From assembly GCA_023374045.1 (NCBI GenBank), contig CM041779.1, positions 144,337,485 through 144,401,484 of the forward strand: a DNA stretch of 64,000 nucleotides, read 5' to 3'. The translations under genes were made by a program, and so were the position numbers. This DNA comes from Limonium bicolor (lineage: Eukaryota; Streptophyta; Magnoliopsida; Caryophyllales; Plumbaginaceae). Positions 1 through 54,263 of the stretch are shown one piece after another (the stretch's first letter is position 1; each line of letters starts with the position of its first letter). Below the pieces are notes generated by a model. That model worked only from the letters and a program-made list of their open reading frames with translations. It had not been told where the DNA came from and ran no database searches.

Positions 1-2037
1 TGCTGTCAGTTGGGACGTCAGCGACATTGTTTTAATTGCCAAGGACAAGGAAGTCTTTCGATTAATTAATTAAGGTAATTAATTATTGATTTATAAGGAA
101 AGGAATTCCTTATTTCTTTTCTTTTCCTGATCATTGTTATTCACGTCAGTTCATGAGGAGCGTCTCAATCGTGGTGCTGAGCGACAGTTTTTCCCCTCTT
201 CTTCTCTCTCTAATTCTCCCTCTGCTGGAACTGTGAACATTACTGCTGCAACCAGATTGGAGGTTTCCGTTGCGGTGTGGTCCTTCCTCCTTTACCAGGT
301 TTGAATTGCAGAATTTGGGTCTTCGTTGTCTACTTTGTTTTTCTTCTGTTCTCTGATTGAGGGTTCTGATTGTGTTCGAATCAGTTGTCGTCGGCCGCAT
401 TCGGATTGGGATTCTGCTGCAGTATTTCGTCTGGTCTTGATTTCAGGTTTGTGATGCAGAGTGTTGCAGTTTTGAATTTCCAAGTTCTAGGGTTCTTCCT
501 CGTTCTGATTTTGGATTGTTGTTGTGGGAATTCAGTGATCTTTATTCGTGCCTGGCTGCTGGGTTGTTCGGACTGCGCTTGTTGATTCAGACCGTTGTTT
601 TTCTTCTGCTAATTGAGGTAGGTGGTTACTCGATTCGGTTTGGAAGTTCAGCCATGGGGATTGCAACGGTTCTGTTTTGGTGTGAATTCTGTTTGTTGTC
701 TGTTTGGTTGCGTTTTGGAATGGTTAAAACCCCATGGTTCTCTGTTTTCTCTCTGTGATTTGGTGTGTGTAACAATTTGGCAATTCGTGATGATGTTTTT
801 GCACAAGTTTCTGCTCTGTTCGTCTTCTGGAAAAGGCAGTTTTCGCACTGTCCGAACTTCCGTCCGAGCTTTGATGTTCGGACACGCCCTTGGGTTCTTC
901 TCTGATTTTAGTTCGACCTGTGTCCAAACTTTGACGTCCGGACACAAGGTCGGACCTTCCGCGTAACTCTTTTCCGTAACCCGTCCGAACATCAGTCCGA
1001 ACATTGATGTCCGGACCTTCTGAATTCCTCTATCTGATTTCAATTTGACTTGTGTCCGAGCATTGATGTCCGGACATAAGTTCGGAGATTTGACAATCTT
1101 TGGTTTCCGAGTCTCGACTTGCGTCCGAACTTCGACGTCCGGACACAAGTTCGGACACCCCTCTGTTTTCAGCTAACTTCTTCGTTTGAACTCCGATTTG
1201 AGTGCCGTCTGCGGCGTTGGGTCCCTTATGACCTGTGCTACTGATTTATGATGTTTTGGCATATTTAAATGCAATCTTGCTTCTGTTTAAGCAACCCTTC
1301 TGTTTTGGGACATTTCACATTGTTTCTGAGCCGTGAATGGCTGGGTCGAGCTATTCCGTGGTATACCATGTAGACGTCGTTCTGAGTGTGGGTCATTCCC
1401 TTTCTATTCTGTGGGGTTGACGAACCCTTTGGCTCTTTCGAGTCATTTCTGCGTTGCCGAGAGACCTGTCATGGTCTATGGGTCTTCGACCTTCTGAGTG
1501 TGTGCATCGTGTCTTGTCCCTTCTCTGTTTAAGAACTCTGACTGTTTCTGCACCGGGGGCTCTTGTGTCCCTTCTGTTTCTGATTTTGAAAGCTTCTGAC
1601 TGTTTGAGGAATGTGGATATTATTTTTCTCTTCTCTTCTTCTGTTTCCAATTGTTTTGAGCGACCTTGCTGACGGTCGCTGCTTACTGGGCATAGTTGTG
1701 TGCTCATTCCCCTACTTCTAACATTTTTGTAGATTGATCAGCGAGGATCATCTTAAGATTCTGGAGCTATAGAGTTTAGCTTTTTGTTTTGTCAGACTAT
1801 TATTTATGATGTTGTAGCCTTAGGGCCTTACACTATTTTGACTTCTGTTTCTGACTTGGATATGTATTTGGGATTTCGTATTACTTCCGCTGTAATTGAG
1901 TACCTTGGTTTATAATGCTTAGTGAACTCTGTTTTGGGCCTTTATTGCATTTGAGTGTTTTAGAGCCTTGCGTTATTGATAGTAATACGCGGCGTGTAAT
2001 ACCCTTAACTCTTAGGCCGGTTTTTAGGGGTGTTACA
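1..2037 (+). mobile_element. LTR family 1, copy 1 (5' end off window)
   Basis: This is the 3' part of a long terminal repeat. It matches 39519-40857 and 42893-43273 nearly base for base, which shows it is a repeat, and it ends with GGGGTGTTACA at 2037, where element A's AlkB exon begins abruptly. By comparison with the second copy, about 70 bp of its start lie outside the window. A CT-rich leader-like stretch (180-240) suggests plus orientation. No primer site follows the end, so it is a solo LTR or a 3' LTR. Open frames inside it (for example 648-1148 minus) are low-complexity and are not considered genes. Confidence 0.75.
848..1160. repeat. GTCCGAAC/GTCCGGAC inverted-repeat cluster in LTR family 1
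   Basis: About five units each carry GTCCGAAC or GTCCGAGC followed by GATGTCCGGAC or GACGTCCGGAC. The arms are complementary and can form hairpins. Unit starts are about 60-73 bp apart. The same cluster is present in the second copy at 40372-40682. Confidence 0.75.
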
Positions 2038-2345
2038 TGCTTCGCCTTCTGCTCGCACGTCTTGATATGACTTAGTGTAAGGATTCCAGTCCTTACCCAT
2101 GCACATCATCTTCAGCTTCATTTTCAGTCCGTCGGTACTCGGGTGTGTATAAACCTCCAGTGCTGCTCCAAGTTCGTTGCATCGCCTAATGATGTGGATT
2201 TGTGCTTCCGGTGTCAGGTATCCATTTAAGAGTATCATACCTGGCTGGATAACCTGACATTGCTCCATTGGAAATTCGGTGATGTTTGATGGTTGTTCTT
2301 CAGGGTTCGGTGTGGGCGGGATTGGATAACCGATATTGAAGGTTC
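2038..2345 (-). pseudogene. AlkB exon (exon 4) of element A, truncated
   Basis: This is the N-terminal part of the AlkB-like exon. It starts after the conserved acceptor CTTAG|GAACC and runs through the conserved MEQCQVIQPGM and MMCMGKDWNPYTKSY segments. A small deletion shifts the frame near 2150, in the segment that reads GGFYTPEYP in D. The catalytic half (HxD, distal His, RxNxTxR) is absent because an LTR interrupts the exon at 2038. It cannot encode an active enzyme. Confidence 0.85.
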
Positions 2346-3869
2346 CTAAGTTTTCAAATTACCTAATTTAGGTGACTTTCACGTTATACTTTAACTCATT
2401 ACTTATGTGGTTGTACACTTAGACTTGCTAACACTCATGCATGAAGTGCGGTAAGCAGTCAATTATTTTACTCATAAGTTAAGGTAGTTCCTGGTCTAGA
2501 AGAGGGTCCTGCAAGCCTCAGACCGGTCTAACACATCAGGGCGGCCTTGCCGGTTCCTGGCCCCTTCCCCTTCTGGGATTCATGTTCCCCTTGTCAGAGG
2601 ATTGCTGGTTAGTCGCTTTCGAGCCTTCGGTGGTCGCGGCGGCCTTACCCTTCCACTGCCCCTTTGGCCTGTAGTTCCTGCCATTGGGGTTCTGCCAGCA
2701 CTCATAGTCGTGTGCCCCATCTTCTGGCAGTAACGACACTGCACATCGTTTCCCTTGCAGTCCTTGCCAGGGTGGTCTCCGTTACACCACTTACAGTAGT
2801 AGTGGCGCTCCGGTCCAGAGCCCGCGCTAGCTGCTAACACATTACACTTTCAGTACACACTTCACATTATAACTTACAACACCTTAAACTCGGTATTCAG
2901 AACTAATTGTTTACCCTGAATGGTTGAGAGTGCAGGGGCTTAGCCGCGTATGCGTAGGTGAGCTGCAACGGCTCCTCAGTAGTGGTGGTCTGGGCTTGGC
3001 CCTTGCCACCCTGTTGCTGTCCTTTCTGGGACTGGGGGTATGGCTTTTTTCTACTTTCCTCCCCCGTACCCTTGCGTGCTTTGACCCTCGCTCGTGGCCT
3101 TACGCTTGGGCGCATTCTCCTCGTCCCTCAGACGGACGGTGATCTCTACAATAGCAGCGGCATGATAGCACTCCTATATTAGGGTGTTAGTTATGCCCCG
3201 CAAATCAAACTCATAATTACATTCATACACTGTACATACTTATTCACATCACACTGTGGTTCATTACCTGCAAAGTAGTATATCCGCTAGGCCCCATACC
3301 ATAGCGTAGGCGGTAGCTCAGTCCGTTGTAGAAACGGTTCACCAGTATCCGGTCTGAGTAACCCAGATCTGGTAGCAGGTGGATGAGTCCGATGAAAGCG
3401 GAGTAGTACTCATCTACCGTCATCTTATTTCCTTGTCTCAGATTGTCCAGCTCTAGGCTTGGCCTCTTGCACATGTATCGGGTAGTACTTGGCTCGCAGC
3501 AGAGCCGTGTACTCCCTCCACTGAAAGGTAGGGTCAGCAACTCTGCCCTCTCGTACTAGCTTCCACCAACTCTGTGCGAACCCTTCAGGTAGTTGATAAG
3601 TGTCCAAATGAGCATGATTTATAGGTGTATTTCATATATAATATTAGCACTTTTCTTGCTCTTCTCCACTTCAGTTAGTTTTCCTCTAGTTTATGTCTTA
3701 TTGTTTATCTCACGAATTTATTGGTTTAAACATGAGGAAAACCAAGCTGGGAGTAAAGTAGATAAAGAGACGAACACATAGACGCAAACGGCTCAGAAAA
3801 CGGAGTCCAAACGAAGAAGAATCTAGAGCCGGTTAAAGAAAGTCACGCGACGAGCACACAACAGAGGTA

Positions 3870-20124: not shown

Positions 20125-20311
20125 CTAATTCATTGACAAACTTATAAGTACACGGTAGTAACACGATTGATATACTCCAAAACAACATCTCTTTATTCAT
20201 TAGCACACTCTTTACACCATAAGTCGGTTTACATTGTAGACATAGCTAAATATAGCATTCCTTAACATACAGCTGGCTTAACACATTACATGATTACACA
20301 AGGCTTGAAAA

Positions 20312-21046
20312 CTATGTGAAAGTCAAATTCAAACGTCCGGGCTTCATGTGTGTGGCATTGATCACTGTCGATGGTGCGGTATTCAGTTTGATCTTCTTGA
20401 TACCATGATATAACATCCTTGACTGTCCACCCATGATTAGCACATCTCCCGATTTCAACACTAACTTCCTTGCGAGATCAGCACGCTTCTGCTCGCCATA
20501 TATAAACACTGCGGTATCACCAATGGACCAAGACACCACGGGTACTCCCTTACTTAGAGACTCGGGTGACTCGTCCTTATCTTGGTGTAACCCTAATCAT
20601 CCACCTTTTTGGTAGAAGTTCACAATACACAGACCTGCTTTAACACTTGGTATTGAATCCGATTCAACTTGCTGAGCAATTCCCACGGCGTGGTTAACAA
20701 CCGCAAGGAACTCCTCAGGTATACTTGATATAGTTGCTCCGTCTTCTGCTCACACGTCTTGATATGACTTGGTGTAAGGATTCCAGTCCTTACCCATGCA
20801 CATCATCTTCAGCTTCATTTTCGATCCGCTCGGGTACTCGGGTGTGTAGAAACCTCCAGGTGCTGCTCCAAGTTCGTTGCATCGCCTGATGTTGTGGATT
20901 TGTGCTTCCGGTGTCAGGTATCCATTTAAGAGTATCATACCTGGCTGGATAACCTGACATTGCTCCATTGGAAATTTGGTGATGCTGATGGTTGTCTCTT
21001 CAGGGTTCGGTGTGGGCGGGATTGGATAACCGATATTGAATGGTTC
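20312..21046 (-). pseudogene. AlkB exon (exon 4) of element B
   Basis: This is a 2-oxoglutarate/Fe(II) dioxygenase domain of AlkB type, between gag and pol. It begins after CTTAG|GAACC. Iron ligands are still present: LGLHQDKDE (HxD) and MLYHGIKK. It is inactivated by two CGA-to-TGA changes (one just before LGLHQDK), one extra base near the exon start, and a changed C-terminus in which the last Arg of RxNxTxR is Thr followed by a premature stop. Both CGA changes look like methyl-CpG decay. Confidence 0.9.
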
Positions 21047-21192
21047 CTAAGTTTTCAAATTACCTAATTTAGGTGACTTTCACGTTATACTTTAACTCTT
21101 TACTTATGTGGTTGTACACTTAGACTTGCTAACACTCATGCATGAAGTGCGGTAAGCAGTCAATTATTTCACTCATAAGTTAAGGTAGTACC

Positions 21193-32219: not shown

Positions 32220-32365
32220 GTATTACTTAAAACAATCGAGTGAATTAATTGCTTGCTTGCGGCATTTCATGCATGAGTGTTAGTAAACTAGAATGTATAA
32301 CTACATGAGTAATAAATCGAAGTATATCATACAACTTACCTAAGTTAGATAATTCTAAAACTTAG

Positions 32366-33105
32366 GATCTTTCAATAAATGTTATCCAATCCCTCCCACA
32401 CCAACCCCCGAGGAGACCATCATCGACATCACCGACTATCCGACAGAACAGTGTCAGGTTATCCAGCCAGGTATGATATTATTAAGAGGGTACCTGACAC
32501 CCAAAGCACAAATCCAGATCATCCGACGATGCAACGAATTGGGAGCAGCACCTTGAGGTTTCTACACACCCGAATACCCAAGCGGAGCAAAGATGAATTT
32601 AAAGATGATGTGCATGGGTAAGGATTGGAACCCTTACACCAAGACGTATCAAGACACGCGAGCTCAAGATGGAGCGACTATACCGAGTATACCTGAGGAA
32701 TTCCTTGCGGTTGTTAACCATGCCATGGGAATTGCTCAGCAAGTTGAATCGGAGCCAATTCCGAGTATCAAGGCAGACTTATGTATTGTAAACTTCTACC
32801 AGAAGGGTGGACGACTGGGTTTACACCAAGATAAGGACGATATACCCGAGTCTCTTAGTAAGGGAGTACCCGTGGTGTCTTGGTCCATAGGTGATACCAC
32901 TGAGTTTATTTACGGCGAGCAGAAGCGTGCGGACCTCGCAAAGAAGTTGGTGTTGAAGTCAGGAGACGTGTTAATCATGGGTGGGCGGTCGAGGATGCTG
33001 TATAATGGTATCAAGAGGGTGAAACTGAATACGGCGCATCCGACAGTAATCATTGCCACACACATGAAACCTGGACGTCTGAACCTAACCTTTAGGCAAT
33101 TCTGA
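32366..33105 (+). pseudogene. AlkB exon (exon 4) of element C
   Basis: This is an AlkB-type dioxygenase exon of 740 bp, identical in length to D's. HxD (LGLHQDKDD) and RLNLTFRQF are kept. The distal iron-binding His is Asn (YNGIK, codon 33004-33006) and one GGA is now TGA near 32554. The Met that could start the domain on its own in B and D is Thr here (TEQCQV), which argues that the domain is reached by splicing from gag rather than by its own start. Many differences from D are silent third-position changes. Confidence 0.9.
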
Positions 33106-40682: not shown

Positions 40683-40857
40683 CCCTCTGTTTTCAGCATA
40701 ACTTCTTCGTTTGAACTCCGATTGGAGCACGGTTTGTGGCATTGGACTCCTCTAAGTCTCTTCTACTGTATTATAAGTGTTTTGGTATGTTTGCATGCAA
40801 GGTTGCTTCTGTTTTGCAAACCTTCTGTTTTGGGACACTTTACTCTATTTCTGAGCC

Positions 40858-42887
40858 TGTGAGCCTCGATTTCAAACCCTATCCCGTGTTGATTAAATTG
40901 ATTGGGATCTAGTCGGGTTTTAGGTCCACTTATAACCTAAGATTAATAACTATGTCATCAAACAATAATTATTAAAACCTAAGCTAGCTCACTGGAACCT
41001 ATTATGAGTCGCCACCTAATTTTTACCTAGATCAAATTAGGAAAGGAGAGTTCGGGTTCAGGGGCCTGATATTCGACTTAATTAGGGTTCAATTACTTTC
41101 ATTACCCCTAGAAGTCGTTTTTCCTCTACTTAGTTTAATTACGGCTTATTACGAGTCGTTTTAACTTAAGTGCGCGAGCTTCTGTTTTTTTTGTGTTTTT
41201 TAGCATTTTTTGACAGAAAATTAAAATAAAATTAAAGATTCCTAAACTAGGGTTTCGGAGGCAGAATTAGGTCAAATTTTGTTTCCGTCTGTGGCTGCGG
41301 ACCTAATGTCCGAACCCACGGACCCTAGTTAACCTATGTGTACATAAAAGTCGAATTGAACAGAAAACACAATTTTGCAACGTCCGGGGCCACGGACAGG
41401 ATGTCCGTGGGCCCGGACATTATTTTAGAAAACCTAAATTTTGAATTTTTAAAAATCCCGCCGCCGTCCGTGGGCGTCCGGGCTTACGGACAGGGAGTCC
41501 GGGACCCCGGACATGACGTCCGTGGGTGCGGACCGCCCTCGGACAGCGGCGTTGAGGCTGTTCCGAAGGTGTTTTTGGCTCAAATTTTATGGGTGTGTAG
41601 CCTGAAAGATGTACAAGACGTTAGTGATTGAAAGTTTTCAATTTGAAATCGAATTTAATGTGAAACTTAACGAACAAGTTAGAAGGCAGAAACACAAACA
41701 AACCTTAATTCAGAAGCAAGGAAAAATCGATTCGGTTAGAAATTTCAACCAGAATTGTATTTTGACCAGAAGGGTTAGAGAATTTGGTTTTTACCCTGTT
41801 TTGATTTCGAAAACTTGTTGTTCCTTCACGTCGGGAATCTCTGAAAGCTTCGTTGGTGGCCGATCCGGTTCGACTTTGACCTGAGCTTCTGACCTCTTCT
41901 TCCTTGTGTTGTTAAGCACGTTTTGGTTCTGTATTTGTGGTGTTTTGATGCTTGGAAGTTCAATGAGAGAAGAAAGAATGTGTTTTTGGTGATTTGGGGA
42001 TGATTTCGATAGAGTTTCGGTGTTGGGAGTGTTGAAAACGTGGGAGGCAAGTAGACGGCTGTGTTTTCTGACTATGGGGATCATCTACCTTGCCCTAGGT
42101 CGTTTTTTGGAAGGCCTTTTATAGAAAGAGCATGGCCAAGTTGATAGAACAAAATTTTTATCTAAAACCTTGATTTTGTGCTCTAAGAGAATCTGATTTT
42201 TTAAAATATGTTGCAAGCCGATAAAAATTATGAACATTTAACTGAAGGTAAAGAATGATTTTTAGGAATTGTGAGAGTTGGAATCGGGTTATTTTGATAA
42301 ATAACCGATTAGATAAAAATCTCACAATCTGGAATCTCCCAAAATTCATAACTTATTATTGGAAAGTCGAAATTACAAAATTCCAACGGCATTAGTCTTT
42401 AAAAATCATCCTCTATCTTGTGTTAAAATTTCATGGCATTTTGTTTTGATTTCGGTATTTTCCAGAGGAGAGAGAAAATTGCAAAAATGATTGAATTTCT
42501 CTTTTAAATTTTGGGATAAGGTTCCAAATAAAATAATTTCAGGTTTATGACTGTGTGTAGTCATGCTAACCATGTGACAATTTTATTTTAATTTTGAAAA
42601 CCCTTTTATTTCTATTTTGAGGTTATTTCATGTGTTAATTATTAAAGAAATTAGCTTATTAAATGCTTAATTTCCAGAATAAATATTATCAGAAAATCAT
42701 GAAATACCTTTCATAATGACTATGATATTTGGAAGTGTTTGGAGATAATGAACAAGTCATATGAAAAATAGAAAATCCCGAGAATGTCCTTGGAAAATCC
42801 TGCATCGGTGCATTTTGACCATTTTGCCCTTTGTAACACGTATGCCTTAGAGACTACTCCGAGGGGGTTGAAATTTTGGGTATAACA
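40858..42887 (+). mobile_element. 2.03-kb solo LTR nested in LTR family 1
   Basis: The insert TGTGAGCCTCG...GGGTATAACA has TG...CA ends and is flanked by GAGCC on both sides (40853-40857 and 42888-42892). Comparison with copy 1 near 1327 gives the uninterrupted site. It has its own GTCCG/CGGAC palindromes (41283-41540). The short open frames inside (41338-41631, 41609-41884 and minus-strand ones) have no recognisable product. Confidence 0.9.
41283..41540. repeat. GTCCG/CGGAC palindrome cluster in the 2.03-kb solo LTR
   Basis: Repeated motifs such as GTCCGTGGGC / CCCACGGAC and GTCCGGGACCCCGGAC form several overlapping inverted repeats. The sequence differs from the 72-bp arrays but shares the GTCCG...CGGAC core. 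Confidence 0.65.
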
Positions 42888-45539
42888 GAGCCGTGAATGG
42901 CTGGTTCGAGCTATTCCGTGGTATACCATGTAGACGTCATTCTGAGTGTGGGTCATTCCCTTTCTGTTCTGTGGGGTTGATGAACCCTTTGGCTCTTTCG
43001 AGTCATTTCTGTGTTGTCGAGAGATCTGTTATGATCTATGGGTCTTCGACCCTTCTGAGTGTGTGCATTGTACTGTGTCCCCTATCTGTTTGTGAACTCT
43101 GCTTACTTCTGAACTAGGAACTCTGGTGTTCCATTCTGTAATTGTTTCAGTAATGCTCTGTTTATTTTGAGAACCACGTTTTGTGCTAACCTCTGCTTCT
43201 CTTCTGTTTTCAATTGTTTTGAGCGACCTCACTGATGACGGCTGCTGCTTACTGGGCATAGTTGTGTGCTCATGAAATACTGAAATACCCCAAACCTTAG
43301 TATATTGTTTAAACACCTAAATATGGAATATTAAGACTAAAAAGAGTCTTAGAAACATTAGTAAACAAATTTAAACAAAAGAAAACACAAAATGTGCTTT
43401 AAGGTCAATAAAGGCCAAAATGTGCTCTAAGCTTGGGATAAGCTTGGTTAAGACCTAATGAGCTTACCAAGACCTTATTTATGTACTAACGAACATATTA
43501 AACCAATTACCAAAGAAAACCAAGCTTGGAAACAAGTTAAAACACAAAATGTGCTTTAAGGAGTCTTAAAGCACATTTTTGAAAAAATTGCCTTGTAAAT
43601 GAGTTTTGAATGGCTAAATGTCCATCATTACTCTTTAATTAATATGTGTACTATATAGCATCACATTTGGAAGTCTATATCAATGGGAAATCAAAAATTT
43701 CACTTCTATGTGCCTTGTTTTTGTGAATAGTGATTTTAATAAGCTAGTTTGTAACATATGTTGTTATAAGTAATTAAATTGACAAACAAAGACTAAATTA
43801 CCCTTGTTATAATAAAGGGGGCCGGTTTTTGTAGTGAGGAGTCACCAAACATGTTAACTTGTTAAGTAAATAAATGTGACTCATAGGTTACTATTTGCTT
43901 TAAGCCATAAATATCTTCTAAAAAAGCAAAACAAACTCACTTACCTCATTCTCTCCTTTCCTTTCTTCATTCTCACGGTTCTAAACTCCTTCTTCAACCT
44001 CTCTTCTTCATTCTCTCACGGTTTGCAATAGTACACACCACCATCTCCATCTTTGATCTCTTGTAAAATCAAGCTCACTTATCCAAATCAAATTCTGAGA
44101 CCACCATTCTCTTCCTCTCATCAAGCTCTCCAACCTTATCCTTTCAAAATCTCAAGAGTTCCATTTTGGTGCCAAGAGGAATCTCCATGGAAGGAGCTTG
44201 AGCTTACCTTTCTACATATTCTTGTTCTCCTTTGCTTCATGGTAAGGAATCTCAAAGAAAAATCAAGTCTCCTTCATGTTTTTGTGTCCACCGAAAATCA
44301 CCTCTTCATGGTGTTTTCTTTTGCCTTGTTCTAGCTTCATTTCATTCATTCATGGACTAGGTGGAGTCCTCCCTTGTTAGACATTCAAACTCTCTTCAAA
44401 GACCAAGGTAAAACAACTACATTAATGTTTTTGAAATAATGTAAACCTAGGGTTTACAATGAGGTGAAGCTTAAAGCTTGAATACTCATTATGTTATTTG
44501 TATAATGTTTAGTAGTTGACAAGGAACCAAATACCTTACCGATTTTACAAGGAAACAAGAAAGAAGTTGGTGTGGAAAAGAGGTAAATATACTAACCTAA
44601 TGTGGTTTAAAGTCTTAGGAGAAATGAGCTTGCATTTCCTATGAAAATGATCTAAGGAGCCAATGAGAAGTGACTTAGAAGAATGCTCTCAATAGCTTAG
44701 TAAAAGGCATATGTGTGTTGAGTGTATTTGCAGGTCAAAGGCAAATATATTGTGGAAATTCAGTGTTTATGATTTATGCACCTTAAGGGCCTAAGAGCCA
44801 TGTTATTTAAGGGCCTAAGTGCCATGCAATTTAAATTATGCACTATATTGTGATGTAGTGCAATATGTGTAAAGTTTGTGTATAAGAAAGTGCTTGATGG
44901 ATTTTTAGTGTTCTTGGTTGCTTGTTGGTGAAAACAATATGTTTTGGTTTAGTAATGTTCTAGGAGAACCTATGTCGAAATTTAGGTAATAAACAAGAAG
45001 TTCTAAGAGTTTAAAATGAGTTTGATAAGTTAAGAAGTGTTTAGAATGGTTTGGTGCTTTCCTTGGGAAAGAAGCATGCATTAAGGTGTTTTAAGATGTG
45101 AGAAGGGCTTAGGCAATGTACTAGAGGATTTTATAATGCAAGGAATGTTTTGGGATGCACTAGAGTCATTTGGACTTGTGTTAGGATTTAGGCAAACTTT
45201 GGTGAACAAGGAGAAAGTGTAAACTTGAAAAAGGATTTCAAGAATGACATAAGGAGTTAGTGGTGAGAAATGATGCTTAGGAGATGATGTTAAAATGAGG
45301 AGAAAGCATTTTGGGGTAGTAGTTATCATAGGTATGAAACACCATTGGGAAAACTAAGGAGGAAATAACATAAGTGTTAGGAATTTCGGTATGAAATGAG
45401 TAAGTGTTTAAGGTGATAGATAATGAGTTTCATGGATGTTGTATGTGAATATAAGTGTACCAAAAGTTGTTTGGAAACATTAAGAGGCCTTAGGAGAAGT
45501 TTGGTGAAGATTTGACAAAGTTTGGGTAAGTTTAGAGGA

Positions 45540-45940
45540 CGTCCGACCCAGGGGTCCGACCCAAGTTTGGGTCGGACAGCCCTGTTAGACGTCAGGAAAT
45601 TGTTCTGGAATGGTCCGACCCAGAAGGTTGGGTCGGACAGGAGTCGGACGGTCATGTTGGCAAGGCGGAAAAGGTTCTGTAATGGTCCGACCCAGTCGAG
45701 TGAGTCGGATGGGGGTCGGACGGGCATGTTTTGTAGGCGGTAAAGGTTCTGTAATGGTCCGACCCAGTCGAGTGAGTCGGACGTGGGTCGGACATGTATG
45801 TTCTGAGGTCGATAAATTCTCTGGAATGGTCCGACCCAGAAGGTTGGGTCGGACATGGGTCGGACAAGCTAGGTTTTTCCAAACCCGAAAATCACTGGAA
45901 GTGTCCGACCCAGTTGTGGGTCGGACGGTGGGTCGGACAG
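45540..45940. repeat. 72-bp hairpin array in D LTR (six units)
   Basis: Units start GTCCGACCCA near 45540, 45612, 45684, 45756, 45828 and 45902. Each pairs with TGGGTCGGAC or a close variant, then a second GGTCGGAC. The unit length is the same as in B, C and the solo LTR, but the stem is GTCCGACCCA/TGGGTCGGAC instead of GGTCCGGGAC/GTCCCGGACC. Confidence 0.9.
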
Positions 45941-47185
45941 ACCAAAAACTTATAAAGAAAAAAACAGAAAAGAATGTGACTTATGTAATTAACCCTAGGG
46001 TATAATGAAGGTAACCTAGAGTTAGTTGGACATTAAAAACATGTCATACTATCATGTTAAACATTTAGTAAGTTGAAGTTAAATAAATAATTAACCGACG
46101 TTATTAATCATGTATATGAGTGACCTACGGAGGGAATCAATCGAGGCAAGGACCAAGGTATGGTTTTCTTGCAGTCTGTTGCCTACTGGTTTACACCGGC
46201 TTGTGTGTTGTATGTTTTTCTGTGTGTTTATGACGTTATAAGATCTAAACATGTAATGAGTTTACAGTTGTTCATATTATTGTGATGTTATGATGTGACT
46301 CATTTCCCTTGTGTGTGTCTAACATGACTTACCACCTATTGTGTATTGGTTTTTAAGTTCCACTATGAACTTCTAACAAGTGTTAACTGGGAAGTGAGGA
46401 ATCCGGTTGTCCGGTCATGCATGTAAGTTAAGAGTAGATATCTGAATCAGATTCGACTCTTATGTTGTTAAGATTGTTCTCCTTAATTTGGCGTTCGATC
46501 TCCCGCTAGCTTCCTCCAAAGCTTACCTATTCTGACTTATGATCAGTTTAGTGGGAACATGTGTTTGTGTGGTGTGTTCGGGTCACCATATCCGAACCAT
46601 CTGTGACTTAAGTTACTCGTTCGATTAACAGAACGGTAATGAGTGTGTGTAACGAGCTTAACATGAGGGTGAATCATTCTCTAGGCTCTTATGTTATTTG
46701 ACCTTCGTGGTTTGTTATTGTGGAACGAAGATCCACTGTGTATGTGGTGTTGTGCTATGCACTATTGATGCTATGCCACATAATATGTTATGTTATGTTA
46801 TGTATAAAATGAATGCCATGTTATCATGACAATTAGTTGCGCGTATCCCGGTAGCCGATGGGCTGCGCGTTAACCATACCAGCCAAGGGTTGCTGACCCC
46901 CTCGGGGGCTCCATATTTTTACTGCAGATGAGGATCGAGGAGGCAGAGTGGCTGTAGGTTCTAGGCTGCAGTTGTATGCTGGTTTATTTTGGATGTTGAG
47001 CCCGGGATGCGCCTGTGCTCCCGTGGCATTATATTTTGGTTCCGTTAAAATTACTATGGCGGTATATTGACAGTTTACAGTGAAGGAATGTAAGTAATAC
47101 TCGGTATTGTATATGATATTTATGGTTTAGTTTTATGCTCGGGAGTCTGATCATCAGACCGGTACACTTGTATTTATTCTGCCTT

Positions 47186-47207
47186 GTCAACCACGTGGGT
47201 GGTTGAC
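47186..47207 (+). other. U5 hairpin of element D LTR
   Basis: GTCAACCAC, loop GTGG, GTGGTTGAC: a perfect 9-bp stem 92 bp before the LTR end. Relative to C, two stem pairs differ on both arms. Confidence 0.75.
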
Positions 47208-47304
47208 GGCGTTGTAGCACCGAAGCGTTAGTTATTGTTTAGTTATTTATTCCCGCTGCGATTTCATTTAGTTGTTATGTGCGTAGTAGGGGTGTTACAA
47301 AAAG

Positions 47305-47332
47305 TGGTATCAGAGCGAAGTGTCGCTCTGAT
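47305..47332 (+). other. Primer binding site and overlapping hairpin, element D
   Basis: TGGTATCAGAGC (47305-47316) matches the complement of initiator-Met tRNA. ATCAGAGCGA (47309-47318) and TCGCTCTGAT (47323-47332) make a perfect 10-bp stem with a 4-base loop that buries most of the primer site. Confidence 0.85.
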
Positions 47333-47516: not shown

Positions 47517-48191
47517 ATGTCAGGTAGACCGCGAGGTCGAGGCCGCGGAGGCGGCAATGGAGATACGGGTGACCAGGGCGAGAATACTACGGCCCAAGTT
47601 ATGGCTGAGGCTGTAGCAGCCGCTGTAGCCCAAATGGTACCCCAACTTGTAGCTGCGATTCAGCAGGGGCAAACGCCCAGAGTTCAACCACCACCGCCAC
47701 CGCCACGAGAGACCAACTGGGTCAAGGCATTGGCAGACTTGAGACCCCCTTCATTTCATGGGGAGACCGACCCACGTAAGCTGGAGGCGTACATCTCCGA
47801 GTTGGAGACCGCCTACGAGACCATGGCTGTACCTGCAGAGGCTAAGGTCCGTCTTGCCGCTTACTACCTGAAGGGTTTGGCACAGAGTTGGTGGAAGCTT
47901 GTGAGAGAGGACCGGATGATGGATCCTCAGTTTGGATGGAGGGAGTTCACGGCTCTACTGCGAGCCAAATACTACCCTGTGCACGTTCAAGAGGCCAAGC
48001 GCCTGGAGCTGGATAGTCTGAGGCAGGGGGACAAGGTGTCGGTTGATGAGTATTACACTACATTCACCGGCCTTATCCACCTGTTACCGGACCTGGGATA
48101 CTCGAACCGGGTGCTGGTAAACCGTTTTTACAACGGTCTCAGCCACCGTCTTCGCTATAGGATGGGGCCAGCTGAGTATACTACCTTGCAA
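47517..48191 (+). CDS. gag: gag exon 1 of element D (N-terminus and capsid domain)
   Basis: This exon encodes 225 residues of the structural polyprotein that forms the cytoplasmic particle in which reverse transcription takes place. It opens with an Arg/Gly-rich stretch (MSGRPRGRGRG), then an Ala-rich helix, a Pro run (residues about 62-67) and the Retrotrans_gag domain from ETNWVKALADLRPP through QSWWKL, FTALLRAKYYPVHVQ and SVDEYYTTF to LSHRLRY. The start is chosen because it follows the leader and primer site and the same start occurs in A-C. The frame continues only three codons past TTLQ before a stop, exactly where the conserved GT donor of intron 1 sits, so full-length Gag requires splicing. 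Unspliced RNA would give a 227-residue capsid-only protein. Confidence 0.9.
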
Positions 48192-48290
48192 GTAATTTAA
48201 AAGTGATGTGAATATGTGTAGTCTACAAGTGAGTATTAATGTGAATTTGTGAGTATGTTTTGCGGGGCATGACTGACATCCTAAATTCAG
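48192..48290 (+). other. Intron 1 of element D gag (99 bp)
   Basis: GTAATTTAA at the donor, TTCAG|GAGTGC at the acceptor, CTGAC as branch-point candidate. Phase 0: removal joins TTLQ to ECYHAAAK. Equivalent introns in A, B (95 bp) and C (93 bp) have the same borders, with CTAAC in A and B. Confidence 0.85.
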
Positions 48291-48552
48291 GAGTGCTATC
48301 ATGCCGCTGCTAAGGTGGAGATCACCGTCCGTCTGAGGGACGAGGAGAATGCGCACAAGCGCAAGGCCACGAGCGAGGGCCAGAGTCCGCAGGGGTATGG
48401 GGGAGGAAAGAAGAAGAAGAAACCTTATCCCCAGCCCCAGAAGAGTCAGCACAAGGGTGACAAGGGCCAAGCCCAAACCACCACAGCTGAGGAGCCACTG
48501 AAGCTCACATATGCTTATGCGGCAAAACCCCTACGCTCTTACCCACCTAAGG
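48291..48552 (+). CDS. gag: gag exon 2 of element D (basic linker)
   Basis: This exon encodes ECYHAAAKVEITVRLRDEE, the end of the capsid region, then a Lys/Gln/Gly-rich basic linker (KKKKKPYPQPQK) and a conserved LTYAYAAKPLRS segment. It is in frame with exon 1 (phase 0) and exon 3 (phase 1). Length is 262 bp in C and D and 259 bp in A and B. The basic linker probably binds RNA. Confidence 0.85.
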
Positions 48553-48635
48553 GTAATTATTTAATCATGTGTGATAAGTTGAAGTGTATGTTGATAAGTT
48601 GTGAGACAAGTATTGATAGTGTATTGTGATAGCAG
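48553..48635 (+). other. Intron 2 of element D gag (83 bp)
   Basis: Donor AAGG|GTAATT, acceptor GATAGCAG|CTAGC; phase 1. B's equivalent is also 83 bp. C has lost the AG (AA), consistent with its decay. Confidence 0.8.
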
Positions 48636-48977
48636 CTAGCACGGGCTCTGGACCGGAGCGCCACTATTACTGTAAGTGGTGCAATGGAGACCACCCCGGT
48701 AAGGACTGCAAGGGAAATGAAGTGCAGTGTCGTTACTGTGAGAAGTGGGGTCACCGTGACTATGAGTGTTACCGGAACCCCAACAGCAGAGTCAACAAGC
48801 CCAAGGGGCAGTGGAAGGGTAAGGCCACATCAGCTATTGATGGCCCGAAGATGGCTAACCAGCCACCCACAGATCAGAGACACACTTATTCCCAGAAGAG
48901 GAAGGGGTCGGGACCTAGCAAGGCCGCCCTGAATGTGGTGGACCGGTCTGAGGCGCCAGGGCCCTCTTCTAGACCAG
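48636..48977 (+). CDS. gag: gag exon 3 of element D (nucleocapsid, two zinc knuckles)
   Basis: The exon holds two CCHC-type zinc knuckles: CKWCNGDHPGKDC (CX2CX3HX4C) and CRYCEKWGHRDYEC (CX2CX4HX4C), followed by a Lys/Pro-rich tail ending in a conserved LNVVDRSE...GPSSRP segment. Knuckles of this kind bind the genomic RNA in packaging. The exon is 342 bp in B, C and D. It ends one base into a codon at a GT donor (48978), from which two acceptors keep the frame: one into the AlkB exon, the other into protease. Confidence 0.9.
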
Positions 48978-49123
48978 GTACCGCCTAAACTGTTGAATGT
49001 AATAAGTGATTGCATACCGCATTTCATGCATGTGTGTACTAGTGAGTCCAATGTGTCATCATGTGAGTGAAAAGTTAAAGTATAGTATGAAAGTCACCTA
49101 ATTAGATAATTCTAAACTTAAAG
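48978..49123 (+). other. Intron 3 of element D (gag to AlkB)
   Basis: Donor ACCAG|GTACCG, acceptor CTTAAAG|GAACC. The C equivalent has the same length (146 bp). Removal gives PSSRPG then TFNICYPIPP with the frame kept. Confidence 0.8.
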
Positions 49124-49863
49124 GAACCTTCAATATATGTTATCCAATCCCACCCACACCAAACCCTGAAGAAATCACTATCAACATCACCGACTTTCCA
49201 ATGGAGCAATGTCAGGTCATCCAACCAGGTATGGTACTCTTAAATGGATACCTGACACCGAAAACACAAATCCATATCATCAAACGATGCGACGAACTTG
49301 GAGCAAAACCTGGAGGTTTCTACACACCCGAATACCCGAATGGATCAAGAATGCAATTGAAGATGATGTGCATGGTTAAGGACTGGAACCCTTACACCAA
49401 GTCATATCAAGAAGTGCGAGCTGGAGATGGAGCAACAGTACCAAGTATACCTGAGGAGTTCCATGCGGTCGTTAATCACGCCGTGGGAATTGCTCAACAA
49501 GTTGAAACGGATTCAATTCCAGATGTGAAAGCAGATTTGTGTATTGTGAACTTCTACCAGAAAGGTGGACGATTAGGTTTACACCAAGATAAGGACGAGT
49601 CACCCGAGTCTCTAAGTAAGGGAGCACCTGTGGTGTCTTGGTCCATTGGTGATACCGCAGTGTTTGTGTATGGCGAGCAGAAGCGTGCTGATCTCGCAAG
49701 GAAATTAATACTAAAGTCAGGAGATGTGTTAATCATGGGTGGGCAGTCAAGGATGCTATATCATGGCATCAGAAAGATCAAACTGAATACCGCACCGTCG
49801 GCAGTGATCAATGCCACACACATGAAACCCGGACGTTTGAATTTGACCTTCAGACAGTTTTAA
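49124..49863 (+). CDS. AlkB-type 2OG/Fe(II) dioxygenase exon of element D (C-terminal part of Gag-AlkB)
   Basis: The exon adds about 246 residues to Gag (672 in all) and ends with TAA. From the Met at 49201, the AlkB domain shows GGFYTPEYPNG, MMCM..DWNP, NFYQKGGRLGLHQDKDE (iron ligands His128 and Asp130), YGEQKRADLARK, LKSGDVLIMGG, MLYHGI (iron ligand His188) and RLNLTFR, the RxNxTxR 2-oxoglutarate-binding signature (Arg212-Arg218). Every catalytic residue is present. The family oxidatively removes methyl groups from nucleic acids. The sequence looks closest to plant ALKBH1-type proteins, so I infer capture of a host gene; a viral (Flexiviridae-type) source is less likely. The substrate, perhaps the element's own RNA or cDNA or host DNA/RNA, is unknown. 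Confidence 0.9.
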
Positions 49864-50047
49864 AGCCTTGTATAATTGTGTAATATGTTAAGCCAGTATA
49901 TGTTAAGGAAGTTATGTATGTGTTATGTTATGTCAACCGTGTAAACCAACAATGTTGTAAGGGGAATATGTTAATGAATAAAGTGGAGTTATTGAAGTAT
50001 ATCAACCGTGTTGTTACCCAATACTTATTAGTTTGCCAATGAATTAG

Positions 50048-53000
50048 GCTGTGCACTCGGAACGGGAGGTACACTGAGTGTCTGCAATGAGGCAGAAGCC
50101 GGCAAGAGCGGCACAATCCTCACCGGTACCTTTCCATTCAATGGCGTGGACGCTTCGATCTTGTTCGACTCCGGAGCCTCACACACATTTATTTCGCTAT
50201 CTTTTGCGAAGAGGCTGGGGTTAGATGGTGTTGAGATGCCAGACTTTCTAGTCACTCTCCCGTCGAAAGAGCGGATCAGGTGCACCCGCTACCACCGAGG
50301 TGCTGTTGTAAGAATCAGAGGTGAAGAGTTTCCGATCGACTTGATAGAGTTCGACGGACTTGGCTTTGATGTGATTGTCGGGATGAACTGGTTGGAGTGG
50401 TACAAGGGCACAATCCTATGTGCCGAGCATCGACTGCTTCTTCGGAGTCCATCTGGGGTTACTATATCTTACCGCCAGAGGCCTAGGGAGCCTTCGACTC
50501 AGATCATCACCGCCATGGCTATGTGTCGTGAACTACGACGAGGGAGTGATGTATACCTCTGCTATGTCCAGGACATAGAGAGAGATCCAGAGTTTAGCCC
50601 AGATGTGCCGGTAGTGTCGGAGTTTCCTGATGTGTTTCCTAAGGAACTGCCGGGCATGCCGCCAGCACGGGAAGTGGAGTTTGAGATTGACTTAGTTCCG
50701 GGCACTGGACCCATTGCGAAGGCACCTTATCGTATGGCTCCAGCAGAGATGACAGAGCTCAAGGAGCAGCTGGGAGACCTACTTGACAAGGGCTTTATCC
50801 GCCCTAGTGTTTCACCATGGGGAGCGCCGGTCCTCTTCGTGAAGAAGAAGGACGGTAGCCTCCGCCTGTGTATTGACTACCGAGAGCTGAATGCAGTTAC
50901 GGTGAAGAACCGTTACCCTATACCACGCATCGACGATCTATTTGATCAGCTGAGGGGAGCATCAGTATTCTCCAAGATAGACCTACGATCCGGATACCAT
51001 CAGATTGCCATCCGTGACAGTGATATCGAAAAGACAACATTCAGAACTAGGTATGGGCACTATGAGTTCACAGTTATGCCGTTTTGCTTATCAAATGCAC
51101 CAGCTAAGTTCATGGACTTAATGAATCGCTTGTTCCAAGATCAGTTGGACAAGTCTGTGGTAGTCTTCATCGATGATATTCTTGTGTACTCGAAATTGAG
51201 AGGTGAGCACGAAAGCCACCTGAGGAATGTGTTACAGACATTGAGGAAGAATAAGTTGTATGCTAAATTTTCGAAATGTGAGTTTTGGTTGAACCAAGTA
51301 TCTTTTCTTGGACATGTGATTTCTGAGGCCGGGATCGCTGTTGATCCGGCAAAGATTGATGCAGTGCGCACCTGGCCTAGGCCGAAGACAGTTACCGACA
51401 TCAGGAGCTTCCTCGGTCTGGCAGGTTATTATAGGAGGTTTGTAAAGGACTTCTCCAGTGTCTCGAAGCCGATGACTTCCTTAATGAAGAAGGATGCACC
51501 ATTCGAGTGGACAGTCGACTGTGAGAGTTCTTTCACGAGTCTCAAGGATGCTCTGACATCTGCACCAGTCCTGACTATACCAGACGGTCCAGATGGTTTT
51601 GAGGTCTATTGCGACGCATCAGGTAGAGGTATGGGTTGTGTATTGATGCAACACGGGAAGGTCGTAGCATGCGCCTCCCGACAGCTGAATAAGCATGAGG
51701 AGAACTACCCTACCCACGATCTAGAGTTGGGTGCCATTGTCTTCGCATTGAAGATATGGCGACATTATTTGTATGGGGTAAGTGTGACGATCTATTCTGA
51801 CCACAAAAGCTTAAAGTACTTGTTCACTCAGAAGGAGCTGAACATGAGACAAAGAAGGTGGGTTGAATTTCTGAATGACTATGACATCAATCTGCAATAT
51901 AAAGAGGGTAAGGCAAATGTGGTAGCTGACGCATTGAGTCGCCGAGCACACTCTCTCCATTCGCTAGTCTCTCATACTGGCTTGGTTGAAGAGGTGCGGA
52001 GTGCTCAGATGACGGATCAGTATATGCTGGAGATCCGGCAGAAGCTTATTGATGGCACATTCGAGGGTCAGAAGTACGACTTCAGACTCCACGATGATGA
52101 CCTGATTAGGCTGAATGGCCGATTGTGTATACCTAGGAGTAGCGCTGAGTTGAAGGAGCGCATATTGAGTGAATCCCATTGTTCTACTACTTCGATTCAC
52201 CCCGGAGCTTCAAAGATGTATAAGAGTATGAAAAGATATTTTTGGTGAACTGGAATGAAAAAAGATGTAAGTGATTATGTGTTGAGGTGTCTCACTTGCC
52301 AGAAGGTCAAGTTTGAGCAACCGACGGCCTGGTGGTATGGTACAGCCAATGCCAGTGCCTGAGTGGAGTTCATGATATTTCCATGGACTTCGTAGTAGGG
52401 CTTCCGCCTACAAGGGGAGGTCTGAATATGATATGGGTTGTTGTTGACCGACTGACCAAGGTGGCCCGATTCATTCCGATGAAGGACACCTGGAAAGTGG
52501 CAAAACTGGTAGAACTCTTCGATAGAGAAATTATAAGACATCATGGGGTACCGAAAACAATTGTATCTGACAGAGATACCAGATTCTTATCGAGATATTG
52601 GAAGTCTACACGAGAAGCCTTGGGTACCGAACTGAAATTGAGTACACGTTTCACCCACAGACCGATGGTCAGAGTGAGCGCACCATTCAGACACTTGAGG
52701 ATATGCTACGTGCATGTGCACTTGACTTTCATACCAGCTGGATTGATAAGTTACATCTGATCGAGTTTAGTTTCAACAACAGTTACCATGCTTCGATCAA
52801 GATGTCTCCCTTCCAGGCCTTGTACGGTAGACCATGCCGCATGCCATTATGCTGGGATGAGTCGAGTGAGACGGTCATTATAGGACCAGAGTATCTTGAG
52901 CAAGTTCAGGCAGAAGTTCGCCAGATCCGGGCTAACATGAAGGCAGCTCAGGATAGTCAAAAGTCGTACGCAGATGTGCACAGACGTGACCTGGAGTTCG

Positions 53001-53424
53001 CCGTGGGCGATCAGGTATTTTTGAGAGTATCCCCCATGAAGGGAGTATTTCGTTTTGGCCAGAAATGCAAGTTGAGCCCAAAATATGTGGGGCCTTATGT
53101 TGTGACGGAGCGGATCGGCCCGGTAGCTTACAAACTTGATCTACCCGCCGAGCTGGGCAAGGTACATGATGTATTTCATGTGTCCCAGTTGAAGAAGTAT
53201 ATGTCTCATCCGTCTCATGGCTTCAGCCTGAAAGGCTAACCTTAGAGCCGACCATGCGATCAGTGGAGACTCCGGTACGGGTTCTGGATACTAAGACTCG
53301 AGACACTCGCCATAAGTCTGTGAGACTGGTGAAAGTTCTTTGGTCTAACCAGGATGTTGAGGAGGCCACTTGGGAGCTGGAAGACAAGATGAAGGCGAAG
53401 TACCCGTCATTGTTTACTTCTTAG
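50048..53424 (+). pseudogene. pol: pol of element D (protease, RT, RNase H, integrase, chromodomain-like tail)
   Basis: From 50048 the frame is open for about 730 codons to 52248. Protease has [12 protein letters not shown]. Reverse transcriptase has [15 protein letters not shown] and FIDDILVYS; the conserved MPFGLSNAP is MPFCLSNAP. RNase H has YCDASG and [11 protein letters not shown]. The integrase HHCC domain begins, but a TGG codon is now TGA (52246-52248). Small indels shift the frame near 52320, 52365 and 52645, and a 9-bp tandem duplication with an extra base lies near 53205. Integrase motifs [17 protein letters not shown] and [10 protein letters not shown] are still visible, as is the tail EEATWELEDKMK. 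Some indels may be assembly errors. The domain order PR-RT-RH-INT-CHR places it in Del/Tekay. Confidence 0.9.
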
Positions 53425-53699: not shown

Positions 53700-53711
53700 A
53701 AGGGGGGTAGA
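53700..53711 (+). other. LTR-adjacent polypurine tract of element D
   Basis: AAGGGGGGTAGA directly before the 3' LTR start at 53713. Confidence 0.8.
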
Positions 53712-53712
53712 T

Positions 53713-54263
53713 TGAAATACCCCAAACCTTAGTATATTGTTTAAACACTAAATATGGTATTAAGACTAAAAAGAGTCTTAGAAACATTAGTAAACAAATT
53801 AAACAAAAGAAAACACAAAATGTGCTTTAAGGTCAATAAAGGCCAAAAGTGCTCTAAGCTGGGATAAGCTTGGTTAAGACCTAATGAGCTTACCAAGACC
53901 TTATTTATGTACTAATGAACATATTAAACCAATTACCAAAGAAACCAAGCTTGGAAACAAGTTAAAACACAAAATGTGCTTTAAGGAGTCTTAAAGCACA
54001 TTTTTGAAAAAATTGCCTTGTAAATGAGTTTTGAATGGCTAAATGTCCATCATTACTCTTTAATTAATATGTGTACTATATAGCATCACATTTGGAAGTC
54101 TATATCAATGGGAAATCAAAAATTTCACTTCTATGTGCCTTGTTTTTGTGAATAGTGATTTTAATAAGCTAGTTTGTAACATATGTTGTTATAAGTAATT
54201 AAATTGACAAACAAAGACTAAATTACCCTTGTTATAATAAAGGGGGCCGGTTTTTGTAGTGAG
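53713..54263 (+). mobile_element. 3' LTR of element D, truncated
   Basis: It matches the first 550 bp of the 5' LTR (43281-43834) and is then interrupted by the LTR of the Ogre/Tat-like element at 54264. Confidence 0.95.

Follow-up and report, generated by a model that had tools for sequence, protein, structure and literature searches.

Why would a plant retrotransposon carry an AlkB-type dioxygenase between its gag and pol genes? The question is raised by an element at positions 47517 to 49863 (element D) of a 64,000-nt stretch of Limonium bicolor DNA, referred to here as the window. The original prediction recognised four such elements in it (A to D) and proposed that their AlkB domain is fused to Gag and inherited with the element. 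We propose, with a probability of roughly 0.6, that gag acquired an alternative last exon by capture of the catalytic end of an ALKBH1-type gene and that the resulting Gag-borne enzyme acts on the nucleic acid of the element itself.

The 5' LTR of element D (43281..47299, + strand; 4,019 bp) begins with TGAAATACCCC and closes with GGGTGTTACA, both ends being read directly. An exact primer binding site, TGGTATCAGAGC, lies 5 nt past the LTR end (47305..47316, +), and a directly read polypurine tract, AAGGGGGG (53700..53707, +), stands 5 nt upstream of the 3' LTR. The latter, delimited by LTR alignment, is broken off after about 550 bp (53713..54263, +), and its start is 98.6% identical to the 5' LTR over 558 nt. 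The primer site, which we take to be of the initiator tRNA-Met type, is also exact in A (6155-6166, -), B (22861-22872, -) and C (30542-30553, +); with 2 mismatches allowed, 2 extra matches appear elsewhere where chance predicts 3.84. The pol gene (50048..52248, +) encodes protease, RT, RNase H and the start of integrase and is interrupted by an in-frame TGA at 52246-52248; the open reading frame list places the rest of the integrase frame at 52571..53239 (+). The matching frame of element B contains SH3_Tf2-1 and, at the integrase end, a chromodomain match (PF00385, E 4e-4) that scores 20.7 bits, under the cut-off of 25.1. With LTRs, primer binding site, polypurine tract, gag and the order PR-RT-RH-INT all present, the element is, as judged from its sequence, an LTR retrotransposon of the Ty3/gypsy group that shows chromovirus features. 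Its long LTRs may place it in the Tekay clade of chromoviruses. Plant gypsy elements other than chromoviruses are described as not using a tRNA-Met primer (PMC6317226). Neither tRNA genes nor Rfam families were found within the 64,000-nt window.

Gag is divided over three exons. Exon 1 (47517..48191, +) opens with the ATG at 47517, encodes the capsid domain (PF03732, 3.6e-17; PF19259, 3.7e-13) and ends in a donor, CAA or CAG followed by GT, that is present in A to D. Intron 1 (48192..48290, +) runs from GT to AG in all four elements, with indels of 7, 8, 6 and 1 nt between D and C. Exon 2 (48291..48552, +), delimited by alignment of A to D, has a dN/dS of 0.13-0.14 and is followed by intron 2 (48553..48635, +), which is missing from some genomic copies. 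In the predicted spliced protein, exon 3 (48636..48977, +) contributes two CCHC-like motifs (residues 325 and 344) that we assume to be nucleocapsid; a profile search of element D Gag returned no zinc-knuckle match. The donor of exon 3, CCAG/GTACC, is common to the joins with AlkB and with pol. When AlkB is used, intron 3 (48978..49123, +), delimited by exon 3-exon 4 junctions in the genome, precedes exon 4 (49124..49863, +), which encodes the AlkB/ALKBH1-type dioxygenase. The pol acceptor, AATTAG/GC, has the same phase as the AlkB acceptor.

Profile search confirmed that the AlkB-type domain of exon 4 is intact in D: PF13532 matches at 1.1e-47 (163 bits against a cut-off of 31.2), the HxD...H...RxxxxxR signature is complete and the frame ends in TAA. 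Among PDB sequences, the domain matches OsALKBH1 (5xeg, 4.8e-68), E. coli AlkB (about 1e-23) and mammalian ALKBH1 (about 1e-11), with no ALKBH5 chain up to E 10 and one unrelated match at E 0.68; an ALKBH5-type origin was rejected on this ground. An AF2 model of the domain (pLDDT 92.7) is predicted to fold like OsALKBH1, its top structural match (TM 0.85, 48% identity). E. coli AlkB is the second-best neighbour in both structure and sequence (TM 0.74), and ALKBH5 is far weaker (rank 50, TM 0.50). The nearest named protein relatives, in the best 120 of 1,255, are from plants, several of them named in the source as DNA N6-methyladenine demethylase or ALKBH1C/D-like, and the element AlkB and plant ALKBH1C/D-type proteins both have an FDIC-like motif ahead of the domain. 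By these sequence comparisons, ALKBH1/AlkB is the closest of the ALKBH types to the domain. In a midpoint-rooted tree built without an outgroup, the element-like domains (7/7 rows) group together (100/100), and a branch of 0.81 separates them from the remaining 59 rows, which come mostly from named plants. No host ALKBH1 gene was recognised in the genome, where the matches (95 and 150) resemble single-frame copies of the element; the best candidate retrieved, L085, turned out to be a diverged element. In IMG/VR, the AlkB alignment picked out 392 pattern stretches, 0 of them confirmed, and no record with both gag and a PF13532 domain occurs in the best 120 of 249 protein matches to the spliced Gag-AlkB query (7,988 candidates scored).

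Within the window, the predicted placement of AlkB between gag and pol holds for B, C and D. Element A contains only about the first 108 residues of the AlkB exon (2026..2346, -; 71% protein identity to D) with no pol found; its gag is split by an interruption of about 2 kb, and its exon 3 donor has changed from GT to GA. The AlkB exon of B (20309..21067, -; 85% protein identity) has 3 in-frame stops, and small indels occur in the exons of this element. That of C (32365..33102, +; 80% protein identity) has one stop, and element C has lost the intron 2 acceptor and stops inside pol. The 740-nt exon 4 of D aligns to C without gaps, in agreement with the equal exon length first noted. The LTRs had been called different; B and D are 81% identical over 1,852 nt, and the LTRs in the window are, by alignment, diverged versions of one type.

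Across the 2.92-Gb genome there are at least 6,275 D-like gag/intron 3 borders, counting one subfamily. The 150 best-scoring of 53,297 first-look AlkB candidates were all at least 94% identical (150/150), and 143 were stop-free. We read 68 of these loci (rows 1-8, 9-28, 59-78 and 131-150 of the 150), accepting each piece at a coverage of at least 70%. Gag exons 1-3 lie upstream of AlkB in 66/68 and pol lies downstream in 65/68, so that copies flanked by gag and pol do exist outside the window. Seven cofactor-site residues are kept in 68/68 AlkB copies, a figure inflated by the choice of loci for likeness to the AlkB of element D, and the same holds for the GT of the exon 1 donor (66/68) and of the exon 3 donor (68/68). 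A possible poly(A) signal, AATAAA, past the AlkB stop (49977..49982, +) is found in 66/68 loci and in B, C and D; this is weak evidence, at least 14 other spacer hexamers being equally conserved in the 68 loci. The dN/dS of exon 4 across B, C and D is 0.12-0.19, with bootstrap upper bounds of at most 0.31, and falls in the range of the gag exons; the AlkB domain is thus under purifying selection. L085, although diverged and broken, presents gag pieces, CCHC-like motifs, AlkB and pol in the order of D; its AlkB is 52-72% identical to that of D, varying by segment, and visual inspection shows splice-like signals at introns 2 and 3. These comparisons support the view that AlkB is an inherited and selected part of the family, joined to Gag, as predicted. 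A chance insertion was rejected on the dN/dS, the gag and pol flanks and the 68/68 kept residues, and the same dN/dS, flanks and residues led us to reject the idea that AlkB is a passenger, a piece of a gene picked up without serving the element. Plant LTR retrotransposons are reported to capture genes, for example in sorghum (PMC7264820); exon 4, with its in-phase splice acceptor and its stop, and the gene order retained in the diverged L085 speak against such a passenger, to which we give almost no credence.

How the one gag donor is used can be read from genomic copies. We searched the whole genome for 26-base exon-exon patterns with up to 2 mismatches, using the reversed pattern as a weak control, and found 125 gag2-gag3, 12 gag3-AlkB and 13 gag3-pol junctions against 0 for each reversed pattern. 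Flanks were read for 8/12 gag3-AlkB, 8/13 gag3-pol and 2/125 gag2-gag3 junctions (L006 and L052), and most of these loci are clean intron losses. Intron 1 is exactly missing in L077, L080 and L084; L006 and L052 lack precisely the bases of intron 2, of which L058 retains 3 nt. Intron 3 is absent from 7/8 gag3-AlkB loci, the exception, L074, keeping it and so not being a splice product; in two of the gag3-AlkB loci (L072 and L075) AlkB is broken off after 48 nt. All eight gag3-pol loci lack exactly intron 3, AlkB and the spacer, and 3/8 also lack introns 1 and 2. Because both kinds of junction are found, the one gag donor can splice in frame to AlkB or bypass it and splice to Pol. As read from these copies, both spliced forms of the RNA have passed through reverse transcription and left genomic footprints, which back the exon reading of the element. 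The footprints attest to past splicing and not to its frequency, there being 12 and 13 junctions beside 6,275 or more unspliced borders of one subfamily; nor do the junction counts represent independent events, because they include two near-tandem pairs and spliced copies that have been amplified. The fusion of AlkB to Gag stands in the in-frame gag3-AlkB joins, but Gag would not always be fused to AlkB: splicing appears to select either AlkB or Pol.

The gag3-pol copies could instead be ancestral elements that never had AlkB. We examined this with a tree of 23/68 loci and three loci without intron 2, in which L052 and L058 were entered twice, L074 was kept as an AlkB-bearing copy, and L072 and L075 were left out for having too few columns. 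In keeping with an ancestral form, the AlkB-less copies are more clustered than random labels (6/500 shuffles as low), stem from subfamilies diverged from D and include three, L082-L084, without a close AlkB-bearing sister. They are nevertheless scattered among AlkB-bearing copies, requiring 5 changes on this quick tree, at least 3 of them forced by its starred branches. AlkB-bearing copies are the nearest kin of 5/8 gag3-pol copies and also occupy the outermost branches, and the exact absence of introns 1 and 2 from 3/8 gag3-pol copies further argues against ancestry. We rejected the ancestral form on this tree pattern and regard it as very unlikely.

We return to capture as an alternative last exon. 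In this reading, a Ty3/gypsy element would have taken up the part of a plant ALKBH1-type gene that encodes the catalytic end and retained it, with its own stop, as an alternative final exon of gag. Unspliced RNA would serve as the packaged genome, Gag-AlkB as the abundant and Gag-Pol as the minor form of Gag; because Gag-AlkB would be the abundant form, AlkB would enter the particle beside the nucleocapsid. There the enzyme may work on nucleic acid of the element itself. Most likely it would demethylate single-stranded cDNA or the RNA-DNA hybrid during reverse transcription, the methyl groups being 6mA or alkylation damage. Plant genomic 6mA is itself a matter of dispute. According to one report, rice ALKBH1 removes 6mA with a preference for DNA that is single-stranded or unpaired, and R-loop regions gain 6mA when ALKBH1 is lost (PMC10469495). 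We lean toward a DNA substrate because the reverse-transcription complex would hold nucleic acid of the kinds that rice ALKBH1 prefers; because ALKBH1-type proteins have several reported substrates, the choice of DNA 6mA is a conjecture drawn from kinship. In its boldest form, the host spliceosome would pick the C-terminal cargo of Gag, either RT or a DNA 6mA demethylase, and the particle enzyme would free the element's newly made single-stranded cDNA and the RNA-DNA hybrid of methyl marks or lesions before integration, countering host adenine methylation; this we consider doubtful.

Other activities would fit a Gag-borne AlkB. The domain may remove m6A from element RNA in the cytoplasm, freeing it from m6A-dependent sequestration, in the way put forward for an orchid element and for host ALKBH9B on ONSEN. 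The AlkB of D is fused beside CCHC-like motifs, a retrotransposon AlkB from orchids removes m6A from ssRNA (PMC9289625, the sole biochemically characterised case that we found in print), and host ALKBH9B releases ONSEN RNA from stress granules (reviewed in PMC12786077). Both precedents, however, are of ALKBH5 type, whereas the element domain matches AlkB/ALKBH1-type structures, with no ALKBH5 sequence match up to E 10 and only the weak structural one at rank 50; we hold this RNA route to be possible, on the less likely side. Mending of 1-methyladenine and 3-methylcytosine in element RNA or cDNA, in the manner of AlkB from plant RNA viruses or bacteria, would suit the second place of E. coli AlkB in structure and sequence (TM 0.74) and the RNA demethylation by virus-encoded AlkB cited in PMC9289625; the nearest named relatives in the best 120 of 1,255 are instead plant proteins, several named for DNA N6-methyladenine demethylation or ALKBH1C/D, and such repair seems rather unlikely. 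A non-catalytic or chromatin role, with the domain steering Gag or the integration complex, would recall rice ALKBH1, which alters H3K27me3 by impairing PRC2 binding (PMC10469495). The invariance of the cofactor-site residues in 68/68 copies favours catalysis and makes this role improbable.

The original prediction knew of no well-described chromovirus with an AlkB domain, and our literature searches found none. An AlkB-bearing Ty3/gypsy lineage has nevertheless been published from Phalaenopsis orchids, with m6A demethylase activity in vitro (PMC9289625). Like the present family, this Gypsy_Pa_2799 lineage, with its paALKBH5-like ORF2, is a plant Ty3/gypsy lineage with PF13532, many copies and kept cofactor-binding residues (PMC9289625). 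It is described there as Ogre/Tat, with a tRNA-Arg primer site, Gag-Pol in a single ORF and an AlkB of ALKBH5/9B/10B type in a separate ORF2, whereas the present element has a tRNA-Met-type primer site (TGGTATCAGAGC), a chromodomain-like pol end and an AlkB of AlkB/ALKBH1 rather than ALKBH5 type, placed between gag and pol as an alternative last gag exon. Because the orchid lineage is an Ogre/Tat relative with its ALKBH5-type domain in a separate ORF, the claim survives for chromoviruses, and the present element looks like an independent AlkB capture with a new arrangement. Plant ALKBH1C/D-type proteins, with OsALKBH1 (5xeg, 5xoi) as the best match in fold and sequence, share the FDIC-like motif; the element domain differs in its fusion to Gag and its own tree group. 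AlkB domains of Alpha-/Betaflexiviridae and Closteroviridae belong to the replicase polyproteins of RNA viruses, which have no Gag. They resemble the present element in that the viral genome encodes an AlkB domain (PMC9289625). Ogre elements of pea and Medicago also express their polyprotein through splicing of a partly spliced intron, a single one between the GAG-PROT and RT ORFs (PMC6317226), whereas the present element has three introns and two alternative 3' exons. In EVADE and the short GAG of BARE1, too, splicing separates Gag from Gag-Pol output (PMC12786077); the short Gag of EVADE arises by removal of the protease, whereas the short form of the present element gains an enzyme domain.

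Taken together, these comparisons suggest that plant Ty3/gypsy elements have acquired AlkB on more than one occasion, drawing on different ALKBH types and placing the domain at different sites. Such repeated uptake would point to a real adenine methylation or alkylation pressure on retroelements. An enzyme placed on Gag would likely be delivered in the particle, and the choice of exon would amount to a retrovirus-like setting of Gag against Gag-Pol output in a plant element, legible in its genomic footprints. With its thousands of copies, the family also constitutes a large natural record of the residues that the enzyme needs.

The exon at 49124-49863 of element D, one of four gag/AlkB copies (A to D) in the window, gives a full-profile match to PF13532 (163 bits). 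Against the PDB, the domain encoded by D matched rice OsALKBH1 (4.8e-68), E. coli AlkB (about 1e-23) and mammalian ALKBH1 (best 7e-12), with a single unrelated match besides these up to an E value of 10. The AlphaFold2 model of the domain (mean pLDDT 92.7) likewise has OsALKBH1 as its first fold match (TM 0.85, 48% identity), followed by E. coli AlkB. Among 5.8 billion predicted proteins searched, 1,255 matched the domain; within the best 120 of these, the closest named relatives are plant proteins, several of them labelled ALKBH1C/D-like or DNA N6-methyladenine demethylase, and four nameless proteins (P0001-P0004) are closer than any named one (58-70% identity). P0001-P0004 cluster with the domains of B, C and D in a 66-row tree (support 100/100, branch 0.81), and the remaining 59 rows, mostly named plants, stand apart; the tree was drawn without an outgroup, and the cluster may or may not have arisen within plant ALKBH1C/D. 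P0002 and a pol protein, P0200, are both on contigs 26,561 long, which suggests the same contig of another assembly.

The recurrence of AlkB between gag and pol, first proposed from the window copies, extends across the genome (2.92 Gb). A first look with the AlkB query turned up 53,297 candidates, a raw figure rather than a copy count; identity is 94% or more in all 150 scored matches, of which 143 are stop-free. The unspliced exon 3/intron 3 border, as a 26-base pattern with up to two mismatches, occurs 6,275 times genome-wide (reversed control, 0), a lower bound on D-like copies. We examined 68 loci (rows 1-28, 59-78 and 131-150 of the 150 scored matches) and found gag exons 1-3 upstream of AlkB in 66 and pol downstream in 65. 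Residues N142, Y144, H153, D155, H213, R237 and R243 of the domain are all kept in 68/68, a flattering count because the loci were selected by similarity to the D AlkB. Comparing B, C and D with one another is less biased: the AlkB exon has a dN/dS of 0.19 for D-C, 0.19 for D-B and 0.12 for C-B, no bootstrap upper limit exceeds 0.31, and these values lie inside the 0.07-0.34 spanned by the gag exons, of which exon 1 was compared in part.

Element D is an LTR retrotransposon whose spliced gag gene starts in 47517-49863. The gag frame of the window copies is interrupted at the same three sites by short GT...AG-bordered stretches, except that C has lost its intron-2 acceptor and A its exon-3 donor. 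The alignment of D with C is gap-free in exons 1 (in part), 2 and 4 and has two single-base gaps in exon 3, against gaps of 1-8 nt in the introns; the damaged copy B shows small gaps in its exons as well. Across the 68 loci, GT and AG are found at the borders of intron 1 in 66 and 66, of intron 2 in 63 and 63 and of intron 3 in 68 and 68, and the pol acceptor AG in 67; for dinucleotides within the introns, the mean share of copies that match D is 86-89%. The numbers missing at introns 1 and 2 are the same as those of loci that lack gag (two) or lack gag or intron 2 (five), an agreement of totals and not of individually paired loci.

The exon-3 donor, which lies downstream of the CCHC-like motifs, is in phase 1; the AlkB acceptor (TTAAAG/GA, slash at the border) and the pol acceptor (AATTAG/GC) each continue its frame. 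With one donor, two in-frame acceptors and a stop of its own, AlkB therefore acts like an alternative terminal exon of gag, its inclusion giving a predicted 672-residue Gag-AlkB and its skipping Gag-Pol. AATAAA begins 114 nt past the AlkB stop in 66 of the 68 loci and in B, C and D; because at least 14 other hexamers of this spacer are as conserved across the 68 loci, we regard it as a possible poly(A) signal. From how LTR elements work, Gag-AlkB would be the main product and would be incorporated in particles, and the unspliced RNA would be the genome of the element.

Direct evidence of splicing comes from the genome itself, since an RNA-borne element occasionally copies spliced RNA, resulting in intronless copies. 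Genome-wide searches with 26-base junction patterns (up to two mismatches) found the exon 2-exon 3 junction at 125 places, the exon 3-AlkB junction at 12 (3 perfect) and the exon 3-pol junction at 13 (5 perfect), with 0 for each reversed control. These counts are places and not events since spliced copies may multiply, and the exon 3-AlkB and exon 3-pol sets each contain one near-tandem pair. Intron 2 is absent to the base in L006 and L052, and gone except for three bases, CAG, in L058, which would fit use of a TAG just ahead of the usual acceptor CAG. Eight exon 3-AlkB loci were examined: five are clean (L069-L071, L073, L076), two are spliced copies in which the AlkB match ends after 48 nt (L072 and L075; 1511-1558 of the oriented locus), and L074 retains intron 3 and was ruled out as a splice product.

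Intron 3, AlkB and the spacer are exactly absent from all eight exon 3-pol loci examined, and gag joins pol in frame in 8/8, several having stops or shifts farther away; L077, L080 and L084 also lack introns 1 and 2 exactly. Such copies could instead have survived from before the arrival of AlkB, and in a quick tree of 42 rows L082-L084 do cluster together, with no AlkB-bearing copy as a close sister. In the same tree, the AlkB-less copies require five changes, at least three of them forced by starred branches, five of the eight have AlkB-bearing nearest kin, and the outermost branches are AlkB-bearing too. We read the AlkB-less copies as spliced retrocopies. The original observation is confirmed and its interpretation upheld in part: the fusion of AlkB to Gag, as originally predicted, is upheld by the exon 3-AlkB junctions and the in-frame acceptor, but it is optional, skipping of AlkB giving Gag-Pol.

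A diverged, broken element of the same genome, L085 (1-3501), which turned up in the host-gene search, has gag pieces with CCHC-like motifs, AlkB and then pol. Its AlkB protein is, by segment, 52-72% identical to D and 60-78% to P0002; exons 1 and 2 are contiguous, without intron 1, and introns 2 and 3 have splice-like borders by eye. Since L085 shows the same arrangement, gag-AlkB-pol seems to predate the split of the D and L085 lineages. In D, the 5' LTR (43281-47299; 4,019 bp) is followed by an exact primer site, TGGTATCAGAGC, and the 3' LTR, preceded by AAGGGGGG, begins at 53713 and ends early, about 550 bp in. The LTR pieces of D are 98.6% identical over 558 nt and those of B 98.1% over 1,497 nt. 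Assuming 1.3e-8 or 7e-9 substitutions per site per year, we date D to about 0.6-1.0 and B to about 0.8-1.4 million years, so that the family has been active in recent times.

Within the D 5' LTR lies a 72-bp tandem array (3.8 copies, 45595-45865), and none is listed for the B LTRs. The B 3' LTR is cut off at 14940-14985, where a sequence beginning TGTAACACCCC starts that resembles the start of another LTR. The gag of copy A is split by about 2 kb of other sequence (3593-5593), and a further repeat family (1-1707 and 39518-43273; mutual identity 76-82%) adjoins copies A and D. An open frame at 63337-63999, running past the window end, has a weak Retrotrans_gag match just below the cut-off (5.6e-5) and is probably another gypsy element.

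Alvarado-Marchena and others reported that, of 121 genomes, those of two Phalaenopsis species alone have Gypsy elements with PF13532 domains, and that the element AlkB demethylates m6A in ssRNA in vitro (PMC9289625). The original statement that no well-described chromovirus with AlkB was known holds to the extent that none was found, but an AlkB-bearing Gypsy element is published. That element is related to Ogre/Tat, its primer site is of the tRNA-Arg kind, and it has a single gag-pol ORF and an ALKBH5-like domain in ORF2. The Limonium element differs from it in primer site, AlkB type, AlkB position and expression, and apparently goes back to a separate event in which a plant Ty3/gypsy element took up an AlkB enzyme. 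Introns are generally absent from plant LTR elements, and the exceptions named are Ogre and EVADE (PMC12786077, PMC6317226). A search of largely open-access papers, excluding bioRxiv preprints, yielded nothing on chromoviruses that bear AlkB, on fusions of Gag to AlkB or on skipping of an AlkB exon, and the alternative-exon arrangement is not one that we have seen described.

The main rival for the role of the domain is removal of m6A from RNA. Rice ALKBH1 is reported to take 6mA off DNA and to prefer substrates that are single-stranded or unpaired, and 6mA in R-loop regions is reported to rise when the enzyme is lost (PMC10469495). A reverse-transcription complex supplies both single-stranded cDNA and RNA-DNA hybrid as targets. 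Because of this preference and these substrates, we favour the view that the AlkB domain may act on the replication intermediates of the element itself.
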